From positions 186,001 through 250,000 of the forward strand of contig NZ_JACXWX010000006.1 in the NCBI RefSeq assembly GCF_014764505.1: a stretch of DNA of 64,000 nt, written 5' to 3'. Every line of letters begins with the position of its first letter. Within the stretch, counting starts at the first letter, position 1. Below, in pieces: positions 2,787 to 33,986 of the stretch. A program made the translations under genes and the position numbers. The notes below the pieces were generated by a model, which saw only the letters and a list, made by a program, of their open reading frames with translations, had not been told where the DNA came from and did not search any database. Source of the DNA: Phormidium tenue FACHB-886. GTDB taxonomy: Bacteria; Cyanobacteriota; Cyanobacteriia; Elainellales; Elainellaceae.

Positions 2787-3866
2787 TTACGCCATGACAG
2801 ATGCTTCTGGACGCGCAAAAATCATCCGCCCCGCAGAAGTTTGCAGTGCACCTGTCACTACTACACAAACCTCATCTCCAATGTACTCACCGCCTTCTTC
2901 AACCACGACCATTGTGCCGTCATCGAGGTAGCCAACCCCTTGCGCAGGCTCTTTGCCCTGCTTGACGATCTTCAGATCCAGGTTGTCACCAGGTAGGTAG
3001 GCAGGTCGCATCGCCTGAGCTAGGTCGTTGACGTTGAGGACGGTCACACTCTGTAGGCTGGCAACTTTGTTCAAGTTATAGTCATTTGTCAGCAGTGCAC
3101 CGTTGATGTCTTGAGCAAGCCGCACTAGTTTGGCATCCACGGTTGCAACATCTTCGTAGTCCGCCCGATGGATCATTATTCGCCCGGGAAAGGCTTTCTG
3201 CATCTGCTTGAGAATATCTAAGCCGCGCCGCCCCCGGATTCGCTTCTGGTCGTTAGATGCATCTGCAATTCGCTGCAGCTCTTGCAGAACAAACTGCGGC
3301 ACAAGGATTTGTCCTTCCAAAAAGCCTGTATTCAGCAAGTCCTCAATTCGTCCGTCAATGATGCAGCTTGTATCTAAAATTTTGGTTGTAACGGGTTTCA
3401 GCGTTCCCTCTGCCATCAGCATCGTTTCTACGCTGTTGGGATTGATCAGGCGCAGCAAAGTTCGCCCATGTGTATCAGCCAGGTTAATGCCCGAAAAGGC
3501 AAATAAAATGCTACCCAATACCGCAGTTAGCGGCTTGATGAAGGCAAACTCACGTGGAATGGGCAGCAAAAACAAGGGAGCCAGCATCAAGTTTGCCACC
3601 AGCAGACCCAGCACTAAGCCCACCGATCGACTCAGCAGTACATCCACCGGCATCTGCCGCACCTGCCGCTCAATTCGCCGATAGCTCGTTTGCGCCAGCA
3701 GACCCACAATTAACCCAAATAGTGCTCCAAAACCGCCCGATACCACACTCAGCCCCTCAACGTTGTTGACTTGTTGCAGCGCGTCAGGCGGCAACAAATC
3801 CACGCCATAAAAGCCGATTCCTGCCCCTGCTAAGATGAACGAAAGAATGATAATTGCGTCAAGCAT
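2787..3866 (-). CDS. PIN and TRAM domain membrane protein (YacL family)
   Basis: A 359-residue protein. The N-terminal about 130 residues contain three to four hydrophobic segments. A PIN nuclease-like domain follows (about 160-285) with conserved acidic positions in KILDTSCIIDGR, VDAKLVRLA and LLTNDYNL. A C-terminal TRAM domain (about 290-350) has the pattern LKIVKQGKEPAQGVGYLDDGTM. This is the YacL-type architecture: a membrane-tethered PIN domain with a probable RNA-binding TRAM. The substrate is unknown; PIN domains are usually metal-dependent RNases. The small zinc-ribbon gene follows on the same transcript. Confidence 0.9.
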   Translation of the reverse strand: MLDAIIILSFILAGAGIGFYGVDLLPPDALQQVNNVEGLSVVSGGFGALFGLIVGLLAQTSYRRIERQVRQMPVDVLLSRSVGLVLGLLVANLMLAPLFLLPIPREFAFIKPLTAVLGSILFAFSGINLADTHGRTLLRLINPNSVETMLMAEGTLKPVTTKILDTSCIIDGRIEDLLNTGFLEGQILVPQFVLQELQRIADASNDQKRIRGRRGLDILKQMQKAFPGRIMIHRADYEDVATVDAKLVRLAQDINGALLTNDYNLNKVASLQSVTVLNVNDLAQAMRPAYLPGDNLDLKIVKQGKEPAQGVGYLDDGTMVVVEEGGEYIGDEVCVVVTGALQTSAGRMIFARPEASVMA

Positions 3867-4217
3867 GGTTCAATCCGTTGGTCTGGAAGTTGGTCTGAAT
3901 ATTGGGCAGATTGGGAATAGGCAAAACGGAAGCCGACAAACTGTTTCAACCTAAACTGTGTAATTAAAAGCCGATTGCTTAGGATAACTGGGCTTAGCAG
4001 GCAAAAAAATTAAGTTTAATAGCCAAGTTCACACAGAAACATTATATCCTTCAAGACTTTGATACGTTGTGTCGTAGTTTTTCGCGACGCAGCGTTCGGG
4101 TATCAGCAGGGGTTTCGATGAGTGGAGTAACGATCGGCTGTTTGCCTTACAACTTTCCGTCAACCGGTAGCCAGCCACAGATCAACGGCTCTCCTCACCT
4201 CAGAACTGTGATTCCCT
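3867..4217. other. gene-free divergent spacer
   Basis: 351 bases between the starts of the PIN/TRAM gene and hemW. It is AT-rich near 3960-4060 and should hold both promoters. I see no convincing sigma-70 hexamer pair, structured RNA or repeat. Confidence 0.5.
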
Positions 4218-5498
4218 ATGATCGATCGCCCCTTGCAAAACCCTTTGCCCAATTCCACGCTGCAAAAAGCTGGCTCTTCTCACACTGTTTATTACCCTGT
4301 TGCGGAAACCCTCCCTACTGCGGCATATATTCACATTCCTTTCTGTCGCCGTCGCTGTTTCTACTGCGACTTTCCGATTTCGATTGTTGGTGATCGTCCA
4401 CCGCTGTCTCGTCAACAGCCTGCTGCAAGCTTTGGCACGATCGCCGAATACGTTGAGGTTCTTTGCCAAGAAATTTTGGCAACCCCCAAGCCTAATCGTT
4501 CCCTGGAAACAGTCTTCTTGGGTGGGGGCACTCCCTCACTGCTGCTACCAGCTCAGCTAGGGCAGATTCTAGAAACACTCGATCGGCATTTTGGAATCGC
4601 TTCCACTGCCGAAATTTCGATGGAGATCGATCCAGACACGATTGAGCTAACGAAATTACAAGGCTACCGCCAGGCTGGGATCAATCGGGTTAGCCTGGGC
4701 GCACAAGCCTTTCAGCTTCAGGTCTTGCAAGCCTGCGGACGCACCCACACCCCTGACGATATTCGCACTGCTGTAGAACTGCTGCATCAGGTAAATCTAG
4801 AGAATTTTAGTTTGGATCTAATCTCTGGATTGCCGCATTTGACGTTGGAGCTGTGGCAAGAGTCGATAGAGGCAGCGATCGCCCTGTCGCCAACTCATCT
4901 ATCGGTGTACGACCTGACACTTGAACCTGGTACTGCTTTCGATCGGCGCTATAAAGCGGGCGTTTCACCCTTACCCACCGATGAACTCACGACGCAGATG
5001 TATCGCACAGCACAGCAACGCCTGATCGAAGCCGGCTTCTCCCACTACGAAATCTCAAACTATGCCAAAGCGGGCTTTCAGTGTCAGCACAATCGCGTCT
5101 ATTGGGAAAACCGCCCTTACTATGGCTTTGGCATGGCAGCTGCCAGCTACACCGATCGCCAACGATTTACCCGTCCCCGCAAACGACCTGATTACTACCA
5201 CTGGGTACAGGCTTATGCGGCGGTAGGAGGGAGGATTGACTGCGCCGCCACACCAGATTCTGAAGTGCTGCTTGATACGCTGATGCTAGGGCTGCGCCTC
5301 GCTGAAGGGCTAAGCTTAAATGACCTAGAGATCCGGTTTGGGGGGCGATCGGTGCAGCAGATTCTTAAGTGTCTGCAGCCCTATCAGCAGCAGGGCTGGA
5401 TCGAAGTTGGTGAGCGGTTACGGCTCACCGATCCGGAAGGATTCTTGTTCTCAAATGTGATTTTGAGCAAGTTGTTTGGCTTGCTCTCAGAGGACTGA
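4218..5498 (+). CDS. hemW: radical SAM heme chaperone HemW (coproporphyrinogen oxidase-like)
   Basis: A 426-residue radical SAM protein. The cluster motif is CRRRCFYC (CxxxCxxC) after AAYIHIPF, and the GGGTPSLL motif that contacts SAM follows. The sequence matches HemW rather than HemN, which points to heme insertion into target proteins rather than coproporphyrinogen oxidation. The C-terminal HemW domain (FGMAAASYTDRQRF onward) is complete. The N-terminus has about 35 residues before the motif; no Met lies closer, so this ATG is used although the upstream Shine-Dalgarno sequence is weak. Confidence 0.92.
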   Translation: MIDRPLQNPLPNSTLQKAGSSHTVYYPVAETLPTAAYIHIPFCRRRCFYCDFPISIVGDRPPLSRQQPAASFGTIAEYVEVLCQEILATPKPNRSLETVFLGGGTPSLLLPAQLGQILETLDRHFGIASTAEISMEIDPDTIELTKLQGYRQAGINRVSLGAQAFQLQVLQACGRTHTPDDIRTAVELLHQVNLENFSLDLISGLPHLTLELWQESIEAAIALSPTHLSVYDLTLEPGTAFDRRYKAGVSPLPTDELTTQMYRTAQQRLIEAGFSHYEISNYAKAGFQCQHNRVYWENRPYYGFGMAAASYTDRQRFTRPRKRPDYYHWVQAYAAVGGRIDCAATPDSEVLLDTLMLGLRLAEGLSLNDLEIRFGGRSVQQILKCLQPYQQQGWIEVGERLRLTDPEGFLFSNVILSKLFGLLSED

Positions 5499-5571
5499 CG
5501 GCTGTAGGGAATGTGGAGTTCAGTACCACTCTATCTAAACTTCCACACCAGGCAAGGCACAACAAACAAAA

Positions 5572-5594
5572 ACGGTAGCCAGACCGGCTACCGT
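5572..5594 (-). terminator. terminator hairpin between hemW and the hydrolase-like gene
   Basis: A 9-bp perfect stem, ACGGTAGCC (5572-5580) with GGCTACCGT (5586-5594). On the minus strand it is followed by a T-rich run, so it mainly ends the hydrolase-like gene. Confidence 0.75.
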
Positions 5595-5627
5595 AAAACT
5601 ATTTATTTAGTTTCCAGTGCAATTGTC

Positions 5628-6386
5628 TTAGCTGAACACCGGGATCAGTGGCTCCAACACCCAAGGAGTCCGGATGTAGAGCGGCAACGATCGCCAGAAA
5701 TGGAGCAGACTGTCGCCTGTTTTCTCTGGATAGAAATAGTGGAAGAAATAGCGACCACCCGGACAAACCCACAGACGAGAGCTAGCATCGCTAAAGTGCT
5801 GCTGCCAGTCGCGCAGCGCAGTTGATGGAACTACAACATCGTTAACGCTGCCGCAGACCATCAGCGGTACAGAAACTCGCATGGGTGGGAGGCTGGTTTG
5901 CCGGAATAGATTATGCGGTGAAAGCGACTGGTCTAAATCTTGCTCCAATAGATCTGCCACTGTTTTCGCTGTTGCCGTTGGGGCAGTTCCAAACAGTTCG
6001 CAGACCATTTGCTGCAAAATCTTTTGGCGGCTCCAGGTTAGGTTTAAGCGGTAGGAATAGTAGTGAGTTTGCCAATCGAGAGCAGGGTCAGCCCCTACCG
6101 AAAGCAATGTCAGTGATCGCACTGTTTCTGGATAGCGCTGAGCATAAAGCAACCCTAATAGCCCACTCCTGCCATGACCTACTAAGTGTAGTGGTCGACG
6201 TTGAGCCTGCATGTACTCATGCAGTAGTTTTACCGCATTTTCAAACGAACCCGCCCCGTCTAGCGGAGCTTGGTATTCCCATCGGGTTACTGGAATTTGT
6301 TCTGACAAGTAGTTGAGCAAGGGACGATCGAAGCACTTTAAGCTGTGGCTGACATTCAGCCACAGCACCTCTGATTCCTTAGCCAT
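5628..6386 (-). CDS. alpha/beta-hydrolase fold protein with an altered nucleophile elbow
   Basis: A 252-residue soluble protein with alpha/beta-hydrolase features: LHLVGHGRSGLLGLLYAQRYPETVRSL carries the elbow, CGSVNDVVVP the acid region, and GGRYFFHYFYP the late His region. The usual GHSxGG reads GHGRSG: the nucleophile position is Gly72, and a Ser appears two residues later (Ser74). The fold is probably kept and the standard Ser hydrolase chemistry probably lost, unless Ser74 takes over. Substrate and role are unknown. The upstream spacer contains an imperfect palindrome (6497-6577). Confidence 0.8.
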   Translation of the reverse strand: MAKESEVLWLNVSHSLKCFDRPLLNYLSEQIPVTRWEYQAPLDGAGSFENAVKLLHEYMQAQRRPLHLVGHGRSGLLGLLYAQRYPETVRSLTLLSVGADPALDWQTHYYSYRLNLTWSRQKILQQMVCELFGTAPTATAKTVADLLEQDLDQSLSPHNLFRQTSLPPMRVSVPLMVCGSVNDVVVPSTALRDWQQHFSDASSRLWVCPGGRYFFHYFYPEKTGDSLLHFWRSLPLYIRTPWVLEPLIPVFS

Positions 6387-6496
6387 ATTTTTTCAACCGA
6401 CGTTTAATAGGGGGTGCAGAATTCTGCGTCTCTCAAGCATCTAACAAAACTGAATCATCTGTAATGTTTTTTTCGAAAAACACATCGCGATAGCGT

Positions 6497-6577
6497 TTCA
6501 TACCAATTTTTTGTAAAGCTACGCAGCTCGGGGCATACCTCGAAGCTGCGCAGCTTGAAGACAAAAACGGTATCAAA
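6497..6577. repeat. imperfect palindrome of about 80 bp, MITE-like
   Basis: The outer arms (TTTCATACC and GGTATCAAA) and inner arms (AGCTACGCAGCT near 6518-6529 and AGCTGCGCAGCT near 6544-6555) fold into one long hairpin with small bulges around a GGGGCATACCT centre. It occupies the otherwise empty spacer between the hydrolase-like gene and guaB3. Confidence 0.5.
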
Positions 6578-6712
6578 TGATTCTTAAGAAACTTAAGACC
6601 GTATCGCGGAATACAGACAATTGTTTTTTGCTGGACAATTTAGTCTTCCCATTCAACACTCTGCTCTTCTAGATTTGGTAGGCTAACTTTTATGTTTTTA
6701 CAGGGGTTGGTT

Positions 6713-7876
6713 GTGGATATCCAAATTGGCAGGGGCAAAGCAGCCCGCAGAGCATATGGGATTGATGAGATCGCGTTGGTTCCTGGACAAAGAACCTTAG
6801 ATCCCACGTTGGCAGATACACGCTGGACGATCGGCAATTTTGAGCGCCAAATTCCTATCATTGCAAGCGCAATGGACGGCGTAGTAGACGTAAAGATGGC
6901 AGTGGCGCTGAGCAAACTAGGTGCACTGGGTGTCCTAAATTTGGAAGGAATTCAAACACGCTACGCCGACCCAGAGCCAATTCTCGATCGAATTGCTGCA
7001 GTTGATAAAACCGAGTTCGTACCGCTAATGCAGGAGCTGTATGCAGAACCCGTCAAACCAGAATTGATTGAACAACGCATTCAAGAGATTAAGCAGCAGG
7101 GTGGCATTGCGGCAGTTAGCGCTACGCCTGCCGGAGCTGCAAAATATGGAGCGGCGGTTGCCAAAGCCGGAGCCGACTTGTTCTTTATTCAAGCCACCGT
7201 TGTTTCAACGGCACACCTGTCTCCAGAGTCGATTAAGCCATTAGATTTGGCAGGGTTTTGTCAGGAAATGCCGATGCCGGTCATCTTGGGCAATTGCGTA
7301 ACCTACGAAGTAACGCTAAATCTGATGAAAGCTGGAGCGGCAGCCGTGCTGGTTGGCATTGGACCCGGAGCTGCCTGCACCTCACGGGGCGTCTTGGGCG
7401 TTGGCATTCCTCAAGCTACGGCAGTAGCAGACTGTGCCGCTGCCCGCGAAGACTTTTATCAAGAAACGGGTAAATATGTGCCGGTGATCGCAGATGGCGG
7501 TTTGATTACGGGTGGCGATATCTGCAAATGTATTGCCTGCGGTGCAGATGGCGTAATGATCGGCTCGCCGTTCGCTAGAGCACAAGAAGCCCCTGGACGC
7601 GGCTATCACTGGGGGATGGCAACTCCCAGCCCTGTGCTGCCCCGTGGCACTCGCATCCGAGTGGGGACTACAGGAACGCTAGAGCAAATTTTGCGGGGAC
7701 CTGCCCAGCTTGACGATGGAACCCACAATTTCCTGGGGGCGCTGCAGACCAGCATGGGCACGTTAGGCGCAAAGAACATCCGAGAGATGCAGCAGGTCGA
7801 AGTAGTGATTGCTCCATCGCTCCTAACTGAGGGCAAGGTCTATCAAAAGGCACAGCAGTTGGGAATGGGCAAATAA
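6713..7876 (+). CDS. guaB3: GuaB3 family IMP-dehydrogenase-related protein
   Basis: A 387-residue TIM-barrel protein of the IMPDH/GMP reductase superfamily. It starts VDIQIGRGKAARRAYGIDEI, the usual start of the family. The catalytic loop GIGPGAACTSR contains the Cys expected to attack the purine C2, and ADGGL and MIGSPFARAQE are phosphate-site motifs. There is no CBS (Bateman) insert, unlike canonical GuaB. It probably acts in guanine nucleotide synthesis as an IMP dehydrogenase. The GTG at 6713 is chosen because AGGGG lies 6 bases upstream and family members start here; an ATG at 6692 would add seven residues. Confidence 0.92.
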   Translation: MDIQIGRGKAARRAYGIDEIALVPGQRTLDPTLADTRWTIGNFERQIPIIASAMDGVVDVKMAVALSKLGALGVLNLEGIQTRYADPEPILDRIAAVDKTEFVPLMQELYAEPVKPELIEQRIQEIKQQGGIAAVSATPAGAAKYGAAVAKAGADLFFIQATVVSTAHLSPESIKPLDLAGFCQEMPMPVILGNCVTYEVTLNLMKAGAAAVLVGIGPGAACTSRGVLGVGIPQATAVADCAAAREDFYQETGKYVPVIADGGLITGGDICKCIACGADGVMIGSPFARAQEAPGRGYHWGMATPSPVLPRGTRIRVGTTGTLEQILRGPAQLDDGTHNFLGALQTSMGTLGAKNIREMQQVEVVIAPSLLTEGKVYQKAQQLGMGK

Positions 7877-29082: not shown

Positions 29083-29155
29083 GCCCCCATCGTCTAGAGG
29101 CCTAGGACACCTCCCTTTCACGGAGGCGACGGGGATTCGAATTCCCCTGGGGGTA
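29083..29155 (+). tRNA. trnE: tRNA-Glu (anticodon UUC)
   Basis: A 73-nt cloverleaf. The acceptor stem GCCCCCA pairs with TGGGGGT, including the G1-U72 pair typical of cyanobacterial and plastid tRNA-Glu. The anticodon stem is CCTCC/GGAGG around CTTTCAC (anticodon TTC), the T arm contains GGATTCGAATTCC, and the discriminator is A. CCA is not encoded. Besides translation, this tRNA supplies glutamyl-tRNA for 5-aminolevulinate synthesis. Confidence 0.97.
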
Positions 29156-30112
29156 TGCTGAACACACTTTAACTTTTAATACAGTGCGGCAAGTGCTTAG
29201 GGACTTGCCGCACTGTTGCTTTAAATCCTTATTCAGGAAATTTTTGCTGAGCGGGGGCACGCTCTTAATACTGGAGCGGAAACGGTATTCAAGTGGGGAA
29301 TTCAATTTTTGGAGTGCTAGGACGCACTTAATAACGGCAAAGCAGTGGCTTTTCCAAAGCTAGGCTCTTGGACGCTTCCTAGAAAGGTCTTGCAATCGGC
29401 TGAATCTCGCTGATGGAACTGAAGCATCCCGTCCTATCTAAAAGACTCCGTCTAAAGGTTTTTTAGAGGATGGAAAATGTGGAATTTGCACAGAGAATGT
29501 AAATTTGCACCATATTTGCACATCTTTGGATCATGTGATAGTATTTTGGCATCACAATAAAATACGCACCTTTGTTACTAGGGTTCTTAACTGTAGAGTC
29601 GGGGCGCATCTATCCGTTATCGTCTTGCTGTTGTTGGCAAGTCGTGTGCCCCTGCTAAGTGATGGCTCGGTTACGTATGATTGTCTAAACTTTGCTTTAT
29701 CCTCTTTGAAGAGGAGAACAGGTAGCAAGATTAGGGAAGTTCTATTCTTTGTCTTGCTACCAAAAGAATTTTTACCCTCGATTCGAATGTTCGTGCAGCT
29801 GTTTTTATCCAGTGGGATTAACAGTACGCGTTTTTTCTTCTGCTACGCTTCAGCCACTCATCCTTTCAAATCTGTGGTGGCTTTAGCTCAAACCAGCAGC
29901 TAGCAATGTCAGGACGTTTCAAATGTCCTCTTGAACACCCTAATGGATGAACCTATAGAGAGAGGTTCCTTTTGGCATGTCTGTAGAAACTGGATAGAGT
30001 CCCTTTCCGATCGCCAAGGACAGCGTTGTGCTCCTGTGTCGCTTGAATCAAGCGATTTGACCTGGAAATGCATCCCGACGCAAGAATCCTTCACATATCA
30101 GGAGATGAAGCA
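29156..30112. other. 957-base gene-free region with several hairpins, upstream of the rtcB operon
   Basis: No convincing coding frame is present. ATTTGCAC occurs three times in 38 bases (29484-29491, 29503-29510, 29514-29521). Hairpins include CCTCTT-TG-AAGAGG (29701-29714), GGTAGCAAGA/TCTTGCTACC (29721-29730 with 29752-29761), AGGACGTTT/AAATGTCCT (29910-29928) and TCGCTTGA/TCAAGCGA (30038-30054). It could hold the rtcB leader and one or more small RNAs. Confidence 0.5.
29182..29220 (+). terminator. strong terminator after tRNA-Glu
   Basis: A 13-bp perfect stem (29182-29194 with 29203-29215) and an 8-base loop, followed by TTGCTTT. It is 27 bases beyond the tRNA. Confidence 0.85.
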
Positions 30113-31573
30113 ATGGCTCCCATCGATGTTTTAAAGCAAATTTCTGATGTCATTTGGGAGATTCCAGTGTCCTACAAAGAAGGGATGCGGGTGCCTGCTC
30201 GGATCTATGGCACTGAGAAATTAGTCCGGGAACTGGATGATGCGGTATATGACCAGATCACGAATGTTGCCACCCTGCCCGGTATCACAAAATATGCTCT
30301 ATGTATGCCTGATGGTCACTTTGGCTATGGCTTTCCGATCGGCGGGGTGGCGGCGATGGATGTCGATCAGGGTGGGGTGATTTCTCCGGGTGGCATTGGG
30401 TTTGATATTAACTGCGGCATGCGTCTGGTGACGACGAATCTGGACTATAAAGAGGTCAAGCCTTATATCAAACAGCTCGTAGATAAGCTGTACGAACGCG
30501 TACCAGCGGGGGTGGGCAGCGCTGGATTTGTGAAGCTATCTCGGAATGAGTTCCGCAAGGTGGTGGAGCAGGGAGCGCAATGGTGTGTTCGCAATGGCTA
30601 CGGCTGGGAAGAAGACCTGGAACTGATGGAAGAGCAGGGCTGCCTGCAGGGAGCCGATGCTGCCAAGATCAGTGAGAAAGCAATCGATCGAGGCGTTCAT
30701 CAGATTGGCACGTTGGGGTCGGGCAACCATTATCTGGAGATTCAGGTTGCCAAGCGAGAGAATCTGTTTGATAAGAACCTGGCAAAGGTGATGGGAATTA
30801 CCAAGCCTGACCAGGTTGTGGTGATGTTTCACTGCGGCAGTCGGGGGTTTGGGCATCAGGTTGCTACTGACTATCTACAAAGCTTTCTGAAAGTGATGGA
30901 AAGCAAGTATGGCATCAAGATTCTCGATCGCGAGCTGGCTTGTGCGCCTTTTCATTCCCCGGAAGGGCAGGCATACTTTTCGGCGATGAAATGCGGTATC
31001 AATATGTCGTTTGTGAATCGGCAGGTGATTCTGCATCGGATTCGAGAGGTATTCTCCCAGGTATTTGGGCGATCGGCAGAAGACCTGGGGATGCACATGG
31101 TTTACGATGTGGCTCACAATACCGCCAAGCTAGAGCAGCATCAAGTGGATGGTGAAGAGCGATCGCTGCTTGTTCATCGCAAAGGGGCAACCCGCGCCTT
31201 TGGACCTGGAATGACTGACCTGCCCTTCCGTTATCAAGAGATCGGTCAGCCCGTGATTATTGGTGGCAGTATGGAAACGGGATCGTACCTGCTAACAGGT
31301 GTGGCGACAGGCGATCAAACTTTCTTCAGTACGGCTCACGGTAGCGGACGCACAATGAGCCGCACAAAAGCCCGCAAAACCTGGCAGGGACAAAAGCTTC
31401 AAAAAGAAATGCAGCAAAAGGGCATCTATGTTCGCAGTACCTCCTATGCCGGGCTCGCAGAGGAAGCCGGAGGCGCCTACAAAGACGTGGATGAAGTGAT
31501 CGAAGCGGCAGAGCTAGCGGGCATCAGCCGGCGGGTCGTGAGGCTAACGCCGATCGGCAATGTGAAGGGGTAG
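30113..31573 (+). CDS. rtcB: RtcB RNA ligase
   Basis: A 486-residue GTP- and Mn2+-dependent ligase that joins 2',3'-cyclic phosphate (or 3'-phosphate) and 5'-OH RNA ends, used in tRNA splicing or repair. Key residues: metal ligands D98 and C101 in GGIGFDINCGMR, His in GSGNHYLE, and the guanylylated His409 in STAHGSGRTMSR. The ATG at 30113 is chosen because GGAG lies 8 bases upstream and family members start near MAPIDVLKQI; a start at 30068 would add 15 residues. It is the first gene of an operon with a CobW GTPase, archease and RtcA. Confidence 0.95.
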   Translation: MAPIDVLKQISDVIWEIPVSYKEGMRVPARIYGTEKLVRELDDAVYDQITNVATLPGITKYALCMPDGHFGYGFPIGGVAAMDVDQGGVISPGGIGFDINCGMRLVTTNLDYKEVKPYIKQLVDKLYERVPAGVGSAGFVKLSRNEFRKVVEQGAQWCVRNGYGWEEDLELMEEQGCLQGADAAKISEKAIDRGVHQIGTLGSGNHYLEIQVAKRENLFDKNLAKVMGITKPDQVVVMFHCGSRGFGHQVATDYLQSFLKVMESKYGIKILDRELACAPFHSPEGQAYFSAMKCGINMSFVNRQVILHRIREVFSQVFGRSAEDLGMHMVYDVAHNTAKLEQHQVDGEERSLLVHRKGATRAFGPGMTDLPFRYQEIGQPVIIGGSMETGSYLLTGVATGDQTFFSTAHGSGRTMSRTKARKTWQGQKLQKEMQQKGIYVRSTSYAGLAEEAGGAYKDVDEVIEAAELAGISRRVVRLTPIGNVKG

Positions 31574-31577
31574 GGGT

Positions 31578-32459
31578 ATGGCAGTACGCACTCCACTGAC
31601 CGTGCTTACAGGACCGTTGGGAAGCGGTAAGACTACACTGCTGCGGCACATTCTGGCGGCAGTTCCGCGCAAGATCGCCATTTTGATGAATGAGTTTGGT
31701 GAAATTGCGATCGATGCCAAAATTCTGCAGGGCAAAAATGTGGAAATGGCAGACTTGGGCGGTGGCTGTGTCTGCTGTTCTCTGCTGGGTGAGTTTGAAG
31801 CTGCCGTGGATGAGATTATCACAACGGTGAATCCAGACTACATTGTGGTGGAAACGACAGGCGTGGCAGAGCCAGATGCTTTAGCGTTTGATATTCAGGA
31901 GAGTTTGCCACAGGTACGGCTAGATGGCGTTGTAACCGTGATTGATGCTGATGGCATCGTGAAATATCCGCAGATTGGACATACCTTGCGGATACAGATT
32001 GAATCAGCAGATATTTTGCTGCTAAACAAAGTGGATCTCGTCTCTGAAAGTGAACTGGCAACGGTTACCAGCAAACTCTATTCCCTCAATCCTATTGCTT
32101 CTATCATTCGAACGATCCGCTGCCAGATCGATCCAGATTTACTGTTTGGTATCGGTCGTGAACGGTTGCAATCGCCGCCGCATCATAAGCATCAGCTAGA
32201 GTTTGAGTCCTTTAGCTTTACCTCGCAGGCAGTTTTCGATCGCGATTGTTTCACAGAATTTGTAGAATCTTTGAGTCCTCAGGTCTATCGCGCCAAAGGC
32301 TTTGTGCAGTTTCCAGAAGGGACTCATCTATTTAACTATGTTGCCGATCGCTGGGATTTTGAGCCGTTTGATTTTGCTGCGACAGAACTGGTGTTTATTG
32401 GCAAACAAATCACGTTGCATCAATCTGCAATTTGCGATCGCCTGCAATCCTGCGAATAA
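31578..32459 (+). CDS. CobW/COG0523-type G3E GTPase (probable metallochaperone)
   Basis: A 293-residue P-loop GTPase: Walker A GPLGSGKTTLLRH, the metal-binding GGGCVCCSL (CxCC) motif, switch region VVETTGVAEP and NKVDL for guanine specificity. A CobW C-terminal domain is present (RAKGFVQFPEGTHLFNYVAD). COG0523 proteins deliver Zn, Co or other metals to client enzymes. It begins four bases after the rtcB stop and lies within the RNA-repair operon, which suggests RtcB as a possible client; that is inference. The reading frame overlaps no neighbour. Confidence 0.93.
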   Translation: MAVRTPLTVLTGPLGSGKTTLLRHILAAVPRKIAILMNEFGEIAIDAKILQGKNVEMADLGGGCVCCSLLGEFEAAVDEIITTVNPDYIVVETTGVAEPDALAFDIQESLPQVRLDGVVTVIDADGIVKYPQIGHTLRIQIESADILLLNKVDLVSESELATVTSKLYSLNPIASIIRTIRCQIDPDLLFGIGRERLQSPPHHKHQLEFESFSFTSQAVFDRDCFTEFVESLSPQVYRAKGFVQFPEGTHLFNYVADRWDFEPFDFAATELVFIGKQITLHQSAICDRLQSCE

Positions 32460-32470
32460 AAATAAACATC

Positions 32471-32902
32471 ATGCCCTACGAATTTCTCGAAGAGATCGCC
32501 ACTGCCGATATAGCCTTCCATGCCTGGGGAGGCGATTTGGAGGAAGTTTTCAAAGCCGCAGGGGACGCCGTGATCAACACGATGATCGATAATCTGGAGG
32601 CGATTGAGCTGATAGAAACGCGTTCCTTTGAGCTAGAGGATGATGCACTCGATCTGCTGCTGTTTAACTTTCTGCAGGAGTTTGTTTATTACAAAGACAG
32701 TGAACTGCTGCTGCTACGGGCGCAACAGGTTCAGATTACCGAAAAAGAATCTGTCTATTCCCTAACGGCAGTTACCCAAGGAGAACGCTTGGACCGCGAT
32801 CGCCATCACCAGCGAGTGGATGTCAAAGCGGTGACGCTGCATCTGTTTCAATTACAAAAAACGGATGCAGGCTGGACAGCTCAGGTGATTCTAGATATTT
32901 AG
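32471..32902 (+). CDS. archease, RtcB activator
   Basis: A 143-residue archease. The family signature ATADIAFHAWGGDLEEVFKAAGDAV is at the N-terminus, and the C-terminal segment (HHQRVDVKAVTLHLFQL) matches the usual EIKAVTYH region. Archease promotes guanylylation of RtcB and multiple turnover. It starts at MPYEFLEEIA, 11 bases after the CobW gene stop; a longer frame from 32432 overlaps the CobW gene and is rejected. Confidence 0.93.
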   Translation: MPYEFLEEIATADIAFHAWGGDLEEVFKAAGDAVINTMIDNLEAIELIETRSFELEDDALDLLLFNFLQEFVYYKDSELLLLRAQQVQITEKESVYSLTAVTQGERLDRDRHHQRVDVKAVTLHLFQLQKTDAGWTAQVILDI

Positions 32903-32918
32903 ATACTGGATATTGAAA

Positions 32919-33986
32919 ATGCTGCAGATTGATGGCGCCTACGGAGAAGGCGGGGGACAAATCCTCCGAACCAGCTTAAGTTTAGCGGCAATTACAGGGC
33001 AACCGATCCGCATCGATCGCATCCGGGCGAAGCGGGAAAAACCTGGATTGGCAATTCAGCACTTAACCGGGGTGCGGGCCGCCGCCGCGCTCTGTCAGGC
33101 GAAGGTGGCAGGCGATCGGGTGGGGTCAACCCAGCTGGAATTTATCCCCAGTCAGCCCGTCCAAGCGGGGCAGTATACCTTTGATGTCGCTCAGACTGTA
33201 GGAACTGGCTCAGCCGGAGCAGTCACCTTAATCCTCCAAACCATTCTGCTTCCCCTGGCGCTAGCAGCGGGTGAGTCGATCGTCACCTTGAGGGGCGGCA
33301 CTTTTGTTGCCTGGAGTCCGCCTGCGCCTTACATCGAGCAGGTGTATTTACCTTTCCTGCGGGAAATGGGAGTGCAGGCAACGGCAAAACTCTCTGCCTG
33401 GGGTTGGTATCCCCGGGGCGGCGGGGAACTGCAGCTAGAAGTTAGCGGGAATGGGGGTGGCGTGGGTTCGTTAAGCGGGATTGATTTACTGGAGCGGGGA
33501 GCCTTGCAGCAGGTTAAGGGGTTGGCGATCGTCACGGAACTGCCGTCTCATATCCCGCAGCGGATGGCAAGTCGGGCAGAGAATCTGTTGACGCAGGCGC
33601 AGCTAAAAGCCCAGGTGCAACCACGACGAGAACGGGGTGTAGGTCCGGGAGCGGGCATTTTTTTGGCAGCAGAGTATGAGCATGCGCGAACGGGCTTTGG
33701 GGCAGTCGGAAAAATTGGATTGCCTGCCGAAGAGGTTGCTGCGATCGCCACGCAAGAGCTTGTAAATTTCCACGCCAACGGCGCACCTGTTGACGTTCAT
33801 TTAGCCGATCAGCTGCTCCTGCCAGCGGCGTTAGCCTCCGAGCCGAGCCAGTATCGAGCTGCTGAAATCAGTCTTCACCTGACTACGAATGCCTGGGTGA
33901 TTGAGCAGTTTGGACTGGCGAAGACAGCGATCGACGCAGAAACTCAAACTGTGACCGTTACGCCTATAGATTTAAAGCCAATCTAG
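32919..33986 (+). CDS. rtcA: RNA 3'-terminal phosphate cyclase RtcA
   Basis: A 355-residue enzyme that uses ATP to convert RNA 3'-phosphate ends to 2',3'-cyclic phosphates, making substrates for RtcB. It begins MLQIDGAYGEGGGQILRTSL, the typical family start. The nucleophilic His is in the conserved SLHLTTNAWVIEQF segment near the C-terminus, following VHLADQLLLPAAL. An in-frame TTG at 32913 would add two residues. It is the last gene of the operon, 16 bases after archease, and is convergent with the APH-like gene. Confidence 0.95.
   Translation: MLQIDGAYGEGGGQILRTSLSLAAITGQPIRIDRIRAKREKPGLAIQHLTGVRAAAALCQAKVAGDRVGSTQLEFIPSQPVQAGQYTFDVAQTVGTGSAGAVTLILQTILLPLALAAGESIVTLRGGTFVAWSPPAPYIEQVYLPFLREMGVQATAKLSAWGWYPRGGGELQLEVSGNGGGVGSLSGIDLLERGALQQVKGLAIVTELPSHIPQRMASRAENLLTQAQLKAQVQPRRERGVGPGAGIFLAAEYEHARTGFGAVGKIGLPAEEVAAIATQELVNFHANGAPVDVHLADQLLLPAALASEPSQYRAAEISLHLTTNAWVIEQFGLAKTAIDAETQTVTVTPIDLKPI

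Follow-up and report, generated by a model that had tools for sequence, protein, structure and literature searches.

The rtcB locus of Phormidium tenue FACHB-886

The window analysed here, a stretch of 64,000 nucleotides from the genome of Phormidium tenue FACHB-886, holds at positions 30113-33986 four consecutive genes, all on the + strand, which encode the RNA ligase RtcB, a GTPase of the COG0523 (G3E) family, the RtcB activator archease, and RtcA. The first-pass annotation had described the four genes as packed with gaps of 4 to 16 bases, and this is borne out, the gaps being 4, 11 and 16 bases on one strand. From these gaps and from the conservation described below, we infer that the four genes are likely co-expressed as one operon.

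30113..31573, + strand: rtcB, 3'-phosphate RNA ligase, 486 amino acids, PF01139
31578..32459, + strand: COG0523/G3E GTPase, judged to be of an RtcB-linked subfamily, 293 amino acids, PF02492 and PF07683
32471..32902, + strand: archease, RtcB activator, 143 amino acids, PF01951
32919..33986, + strand: rtcA, lineage-specific addition, 355 amino acids, TIGR03399

The ligase scored 566 bits against Pfam RtcB (PF01139, curated cut-off 27), the GTPase 161 bits against cobW (PF02492, curated cut-off 20.7) and 54.7 bits against CobW_C (PF07683, cut-off 22), so this domain is present, and the archease 132.6 bits against Archease (PF01951, cut-off 25). The rtcA product scored 260 bits with RTC (cut-off 27) and 81 bits with RTC_insert (cut-off 23), and lies above the RtcA equivalog cut-off of TIGR03399 (401.4 vs 250.05 bits). 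An alternative in-frame ATG for rtcB lies at 30068, and there is an in-frame TTG for rtcA at 32913. No terminator-like match was found inside the operon gaps; across the whole window there were four, not above the mean of 5.3 in shuffled sequence. The source genome (8.9 Mb in 255 contigs) encodes five PF02492 proteins, including the operon GTPase, and one full RtcB. Elsewhere in it, a 49-amino-acid frame at G000:C46:104881-105003 (L122) matches the final 43 positions of the RtcB profile, and is a possible remnant of a second rtcB.

A three-gene unit shared by bacteria and archaea

Among the 36 genomes returned for the source order, a GTPase of at least 72% identity is encoded in five (the source genome included), the best in the remaining ones reaching at most 43%, and in all five rtcB lies before it and archease after it. 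None of 30 loci of other G3E/COG0523 genes has rtcB, archease or rtcA in flanks of up to about 1.5 kb. A wide scan over 84,980 species, each represented by a single genome, was seeded with an alignment of the five GTPases alone and gave 215 relatives, and the locus counts given here cover the best 80 of these 215. When the 1660 open reading frames of at least 100 amino acids in the 80 loci were grouped into families, COG0523 was found in 80/80 loci, archease in 76 and RtcB in 68, with the next real gene family in at most 10 and the rtcA family in seven, cyanobacteria only; an antisense-shadow cluster in 54 loci, every member of which overlies rtcB or the GTPase gene, was set aside. Because of these counts, the conserved unit is rtcB-COG0523-archease, three genes, and rtcA is an addition to it. 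Because selection on the GTPase alone still returned archease and rtcB this often, we consider the GTPase to be tied to RtcB. The survey of COG0523 neighbourhoods that the first-pass annotation had proposed thus reveals an arrangement well beyond one strain, and a strain-specific insertion is excluded by the same neighbourhood in the five order genomes and the 80 loci.

In 58 of the 80 loci, rtcB is found no more than 250 bp upstream of the GTPase gene; in 10 it lies at another place in the stretch, in four there is a contig edge, and in eight it is absent. For archease the corresponding counts are 69 (at most 450 bp downstream), seven, three and one. No GTPase-archease fusion was seen among the 80 loci. 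Six of the eight genomes without rtcB in the stretch were searched and five encode RtcB elsewhere, and a whole-genome RtcB search for 20 of the 80 loci found it in 19. The loci span cyanobacteria, at least seven further bacterial phyla and archaea: 35 cyanobacteria, 15 Verrucomicrobia, 15 archaea (mostly DPANN: Aenigmatarchaeota, Micrarchaeota, Woesearchaeota, Nanoarchaeota, plus one locus assigned simply to an archaeon), five Acidobacteria, three Gemmatimonadota, two Latescibacterota, and one each of Deltaproteobacteria, Desulfobacteraceae, Nitrospirae, Nitrospinota and Kerfeldbacteria. The association is thus real and broad, and probably old. The carriers include Fischerella thermalis PCC 7521 and Chlorogloeopsis fritschii PCC 6912, and since sequenced culture-collection cyanobacteria carry the set, access to the proteins should be easy.

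Two side observations concern these loci. The GTPase of the short Kerfeldbacteria contig (L094) nests inside Aenigmatarchaeota, and the contig is probably misbinned. Two near-identical Scytonema loci have an insertion between rtcB and the GTPase gene (L043:6449-6970 and L044:6448-6969); it encodes a cyclic phosphodiesterase (PF07823, 40 bits), which fits RNA end processing.

The GTPase subfamily

In an alignment of 64 RtcB-linked GTPases (the frameshifted L107 left out), the residues of Walker A, GxxGxGKT (G12, G15, G17, K18, T19 and T20), the Walker B-region glutamate E92, and N150, K151 and D153 of NKxD are invariant in 64/64, and all 64 carry the GCxCC metal motif. A long histidine stretch (six His in 20 residues) occurs in none of them, and 48 have HxH or HH around residue 200. 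Twenty positions are near-fixed in the RtcB-linked GTPases and rare among 28 paralogs. The ratio of nonsynonymous to synonymous substitution rates (dN/dS) against three relatives is 0.07-0.08, at dS above 1 and thus near saturation, and the GTPase is, as judged from its codons, under strong purifying selection.

The first-pass annotation had spoken of an RNA-repair operon with an embedded CobW; the operon and the insertion of a G3E GTPase stand, with the amendments that rtcA is not part of the core and that the protein is not CobW. Membership of the cobalamin-related CobW family is rejected at 131.4 bits with TIGR02475 vs the equivalog cut-off of 332.1 (the best E-value of this profile on 63 relatives is 6.4e-43), that of the zinc metallochaperone ZigA at 118.2 bits with NF038288 vs 600, and that of YjiA at 108.1 bits with NF008578 vs 361. 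The grouping with known cobalamin or zinc families that the annotation had named as a refutation is therefore not what the CobW and ZigA cut-offs indicate. A tree was built from 56 of the 64 linked GTPases, eight near-copies having been left out, and 31 others, namely 28 cyanobacterial paralogs, E. coli YjiA and YeiR and one Thermus protein; it contains no true CobW, ZigA or Nha3. Linked and other GTPases fall on two sides of one branch, with a Shimodaira-Hasegawa-like approximate likelihood ratio (SH-aLRT) support of 98, obtained by a quick method and with several long outsider branches, and the split is partly by construction, the linked rows having been chosen for similarity to the window GTPase. 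A sixth GTPase match among 386 cyanobacterial genomes, that of G346 (38% identity), groups with the paralogs, and has neither rtcB nor archease in its 1.5-kb flank. We judge the RtcB-linked GTPases to be a dedicated subfamily within the known COG0523 family.

A structure model of the GTPase has a mean predicted local distance difference test score (pLDDT) of 74, and since residues 39-71, the stretch with CxCC, score below 50, it says little on the metal site. Its top match in the PDB is YjiA, at a template modelling score of about 0.5.

The linked RtcB clade

Archease-anchored samples were taken from 386 cyanobacterial genomes (14 with archease) and from the phyla of four recorded loci: 145 genomes for L080, a Verrucomicrobiales record (10 with archease), 119 for L081, an Acidobacteria record (50), 148 for L095, a Woesearchaeota record (139), and 64 for L108, Gemmatimonadota (21). 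The 107 archease loci examined include the 30 best-scoring each of the Woesearchaeota and Acidobacteria samples, and RtcB identity refers to the best local match to the window RtcB, often on a partial RtcB in the flank. The GTPase is present in 14/20 loci with RtcB of at least 64% identity, in 1/6 at 55-64% and in 0/54 below 55%, a set in which 51 of the 54 loci have the order archease-rtcB; it is present in 2/27 loci without rtcB in the 1.5-kb flank. In the 386 cyanobacterial genomes, intact RtcB of at least 83% identity, the GTPase and its archease are all found in the same five genomes.

An RtcB tree of 77 rows (rows shorter than 420 residues or with stops left out) holds 43 with the GTPase, after 18 near-copies were dropped, 8 close ones without it and 26 distant ones without it. 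The presence of the GTPase changes three times over the 77 rows, which would most simply be read as one gain after two archaeal RtcBs had split off, followed by two losses; rtcB and archease remain neighbours in the rows of GTPase loss. The GTPases go with one RtcB clade.

Two cyanobacterial genomes show remnants. In G193, a broken RtcB (75-77% identity) directly precedes a fragment of the GTPase with 78% identity in 76 residues; a separate contig holds a remnant of archease. The set thus decays together, since G193 holds remnants of all three. In G360, archease lies in two frames, and no RtcB is found at an E-value of 1e-30. The G193 remnants are:

L304:6678-7874 and L145:4891-5013: RtcB and GTPase side by side, archease on another contig

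Taken with the neighbourhood counts, the archease-anchored sample and the RtcB tree give strong genomic support to the link of the G3E GTPase with RtcB and archease that the first-pass annotation had put forward.

Residues 7-486 of the window RtcB align to Pyrococcus horikoshii RtcB (1uc2, E 1.7e-162), and C101, H206, H240, H335 and H409 are invariant in 43/43 COG0523-linked tree rows. The residues that track presence of the GTPase are a few scattered substitutions, with no catalytic Cys or His among them. Six extra cysteines (64, 158, 177, 241, 277 and 294) are conserved in the clade, and the aligned P. horikoshii RtcB has none of them. Rows without the GTPase retain them as well, apart from a single exception at position 177, and two of the six, 241 and 277, also occur commonly among the distant RtcBs. 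One extra conserved cysteine adjoins the metal ligand His240. The window archease matches that of P. horikoshii (4n2p) at E 1.5e-20, and D13, E70, D76, D117 and D142 are kept in all 75-76 relatives aligned at each site. As a side observation, the Woesearchaeota rtcB matches of L095 (~4124-6966) and L113 (~3717-6701) come in widely spaced pieces within long frames, a pattern to be expected if an intein sat in the active-site region.

Upstream features and mobile elements

29942..30017, + strand: short conserved element that contains a small hairpin with T residues after it, about 96-171 bases ahead of rtcB

This element has 78-82% identity to the corresponding place in L036, L037 and L038 and is missing from three further aligned relatives; it is a possible leader, terminator or regulatory element. 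A tRNA-Glu(TTC) at 29083-29155 precedes rtcB by about 950 bases, which appear to be poor in genes. An upstream tRNA does not recur, ARAGORN finding any tRNA in 3 of the 42 related loci (of the 80) on which it was run, and Rfam found one tRNA and no other RNA element in 20000-45000.

Several mobile origins of the GTPase were considered and rejected. Phage records hold distant COG0523 proteins alone (18 records, all below 60% identity; the 10 rows listed at 27-35%), viral contigs contained no relative, and the 188 plasmid records are likewise all below 60% (the 30 rows listed at 31-38%). A defence system was also rejected, PADLOC giving nothing for RtcB, archease and RtcA, and weak P-loop matches only for the GTPase.

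Discussion

We believe, with moderate confidence, that the GTPase serves one RtcB clade as a dedicated helper and handles metal at the two-metal site of RtcB. The operon, the subfamily, the co-inheritance and the intact motifs are the part of this explanation that was directly observed; RtcB is most likely the client, and insertion or correction of metal at the two-metal site would be our best hypothesis for the mechanism. RtcB is a two-metal enzyme whose active-site cysteine is sensitive to metal (PMC12263435); archease brings a third metal site, and Mn is best in vitro (PMC10944509). Among COG0523 proteins in the GTP form, the metal taken up is Co for CobW and Zn for YeiR and YjiA (PMC7895991). 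Let us assume that RtcB, the GTPase and archease are made together from one operon. By analogy with CobW, YeiR and YjiA, the GTP-bound GTPase might then hold a thiophilic metal, Zn or Co, at GCxCC, and dock on apo or wrongly metallated RtcB, perhaps via its conserved C-terminal domain, where GTP hydrolysis would drive transfer of the metal, either into RtcB (as an insertase) or out of it (as a correction). Archease would then bind and guanylylate RtcB, as is known for the archease of other organisms. Insertion or removal of Zn or Co would be likelier than loading of Mn, because YeiR and YjiA hardly bind Mn.

A number of observations weigh against this explanation. Six of the 20 archease-anchored loci with close RtcB (at least 64%) lack the GTPase, and nine extended loci of close or archaeal RtcB have no GTPase nearby, with rtcB and archease still adjacent. 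The GTPase profile matches 11/148 genomes of the Woesearchaeota-phylum sample at E of at most 1e-50, five of them at most 4e-95, and only three of these 11 DPANN matches are flanked by rtcB and archease within 1.5 kb; the high-scoring G644 and G611 have neither. In several archaea further genes separate the three, and rtcB in L115 and archease in L090 are on the opposite strand. The pairwise distances of RtcB, GTPase and archease show correlations of 0.90-0.93 (58 loci and the window; largest of 500 permutations, 0.40), which speak for the explanation but would equally be expected from vertical inheritance alone. The active-site residues of RtcB are alike in rows with and without the GTPase. 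P. horikoshii RtcB and archease ligate in vitro, with no such GTPase named in the relevant passages (PMC3973293). Lastly, human RTCB works best with Mn and is inhibited by Zn and Co (PMC10944509), and Mn is hardly bound by the COG0523 proteins YeiR and YjiA (PMC7895991), so simple loading of the usual metal of RtcB does not fit.

This mismatch could be met in different ways: in vivo, one site of this RtcB clade might work with Zn or Co, or the GTPase might take out a wrong metal, or it might shield apo-RtcB. For the first, a review notes that another structure study saw human RtcB activity with Co and, less, with Zn, and that Zn can replace one of the two Mn in archaeal RtcB (PMC10630183). As for the second, the GTPase might be a GTP-driven metal editor that removes inhibitory Zn or Co from mis-metallated RtcB, so that Mn enters before archease acts. 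Such an editor would explain why a metallochaperone with a thiol site serves a Mn enzyme, and we regard it, tentatively, as a possible though not a likely form of metal handling. We know of no metal-proofreading factor for any RNA repair enzyme.

The third, that the GTPase is a nucleotide-dependent protector or timer which occludes the active site of apo-RtcB and releases it to archease on GTP hydrolysis, appears unlikely to us. It has a precedent in PYROXD1 of the human tRNA ligase complex, a helper that acts on apo-RtcB before archease, the role we propose for the GTPase: bound to apo-RTCB, it keeps archease out and guards the active-site cysteine against oxidation, although, unlike the GTPase, it is a flavoprotein of unrelated fold in a metazoan complex (PMC12263435). 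The share of cyanobacteria among the carriers (35/80) and the several conserved cysteines of this RtcB clade that P. horikoshii RtcB lacks would suit protection as well. However, the extra cysteines remain in rows without the GTPase and some are common in distant RtcB, archaea, mostly DPANN, make up 15 of the 80 loci, and the invariant GCxCC points to metal. Many of these archaea are probably anaerobic.

Perhaps the GTPase is instead a general zinc-stress factor that raises RNA repair under metal stress, with a client other than RtcB. Zur sites are predicted at many COG0523 genes, some of them cyanobacterial (PMC2770081), and the Zur regulon of Anabaena contains COG0523 proteins (PMC10957091). 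Yet a scan of this window with a Zur consensus gave no such palindrome upstream of the operon, and elsewhere in the 64 kb two occur at up to three mismatches, against a chance mean of 1.97. With the GTPase at 118 bits vs the ZigA cut-off of 600, and with RtcB and archease as the recurrent neighbours, we find such zinc-status coupling quite improbable.

Another candidate for the client is archease, or the complex of RtcB, archease and GTP, in which the GTPase would supply the third metal of archease or act in guanylylation. Archease is the most faithful neighbour (76/80 vs 68/80 for rtcB), and human archease brings a third metal site, with the origin of the metal described as unclear (PMC10944509). 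Against this, archease binds metal through carboxylates (PMC3973293), which would suit Mn or Mg over a thiol-bound metal, and none of the 54 archease loci with distant RtcB has a GTPase of this kind in its flank; we give this alternative little credence. That the GTPase is a neutral passenger retained by chance linkage, as its two apparent losses on the RtcB tree with rtcB-archease retained might suggest, is hardly credible given a gene order that is conserved across bacteria and, often, DPANN archaea too, the strong purifying selection and invariant motifs, and the absence of such placement among the 30 paralogs examined.

Metal handling at RtcB, then, remains the explanation we favour, and it has parallels among described systems. 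Like YjiA, CobW, YeiR and ZigA, all G3E proteins, the GTPase has Walker A, the Walker B glutamate, NKxD, GCxCC and CobW_C, and YjiA is its best solved relative by sequence and fold. Unlike YjiA, YeiR and the cyanobacterial paralogs, it falls in a clade of its own, in an operon with rtcB and archease; unlike CobW, ZigA and YjiA, it lies far under the cut-offs of these equivalogs, and the linked GTPases are without the long His stretch. The locus resembles the rtcB-archease operon of P. horikoshii (PMC3973293) in that an RtcB with an archaeal-type active site lies beside archease, and differs from it in having the GTPase gene between the two; the word 'GTPase' is absent from the main text of that paper (Desai et al., 2014). 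A further parallel is offered by the one-client G3E maturases Nha3, UreG, HypB and MeaB, each a GTPase tied to one metalloenzyme (PMC2770081, PMC9164220), unlike which the neighbour here is an RNA ligase and the client relation putative.

Our literature search found no account of a COG0523/CobW GTPase with RtcB and archease, although an earlier description is still conceivable, key COG0523 and RNA-repair papers lying outside the search. The main text of Haas et al., 2009 (PMC2770081) has no mention of rtcB, archease, UPF0027 or RNA ligase, and passages of PMC9600594 name no GTPase. The RtcB-linked subfamily thus seems unnamed in the literature searched, and priority is uncertain.

Many COG0523 proteins are without a known client (PMC9164220), and which metals RtcB uses in vivo is a question posed by the RtcB literature itself (PMC10944509, PMC10630183). 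That one COG0523 subfamily is tied to one enzyme by operon, phylogeny and joint decay makes the client testable, and the association bears on which metals RtcB uses in vivo.

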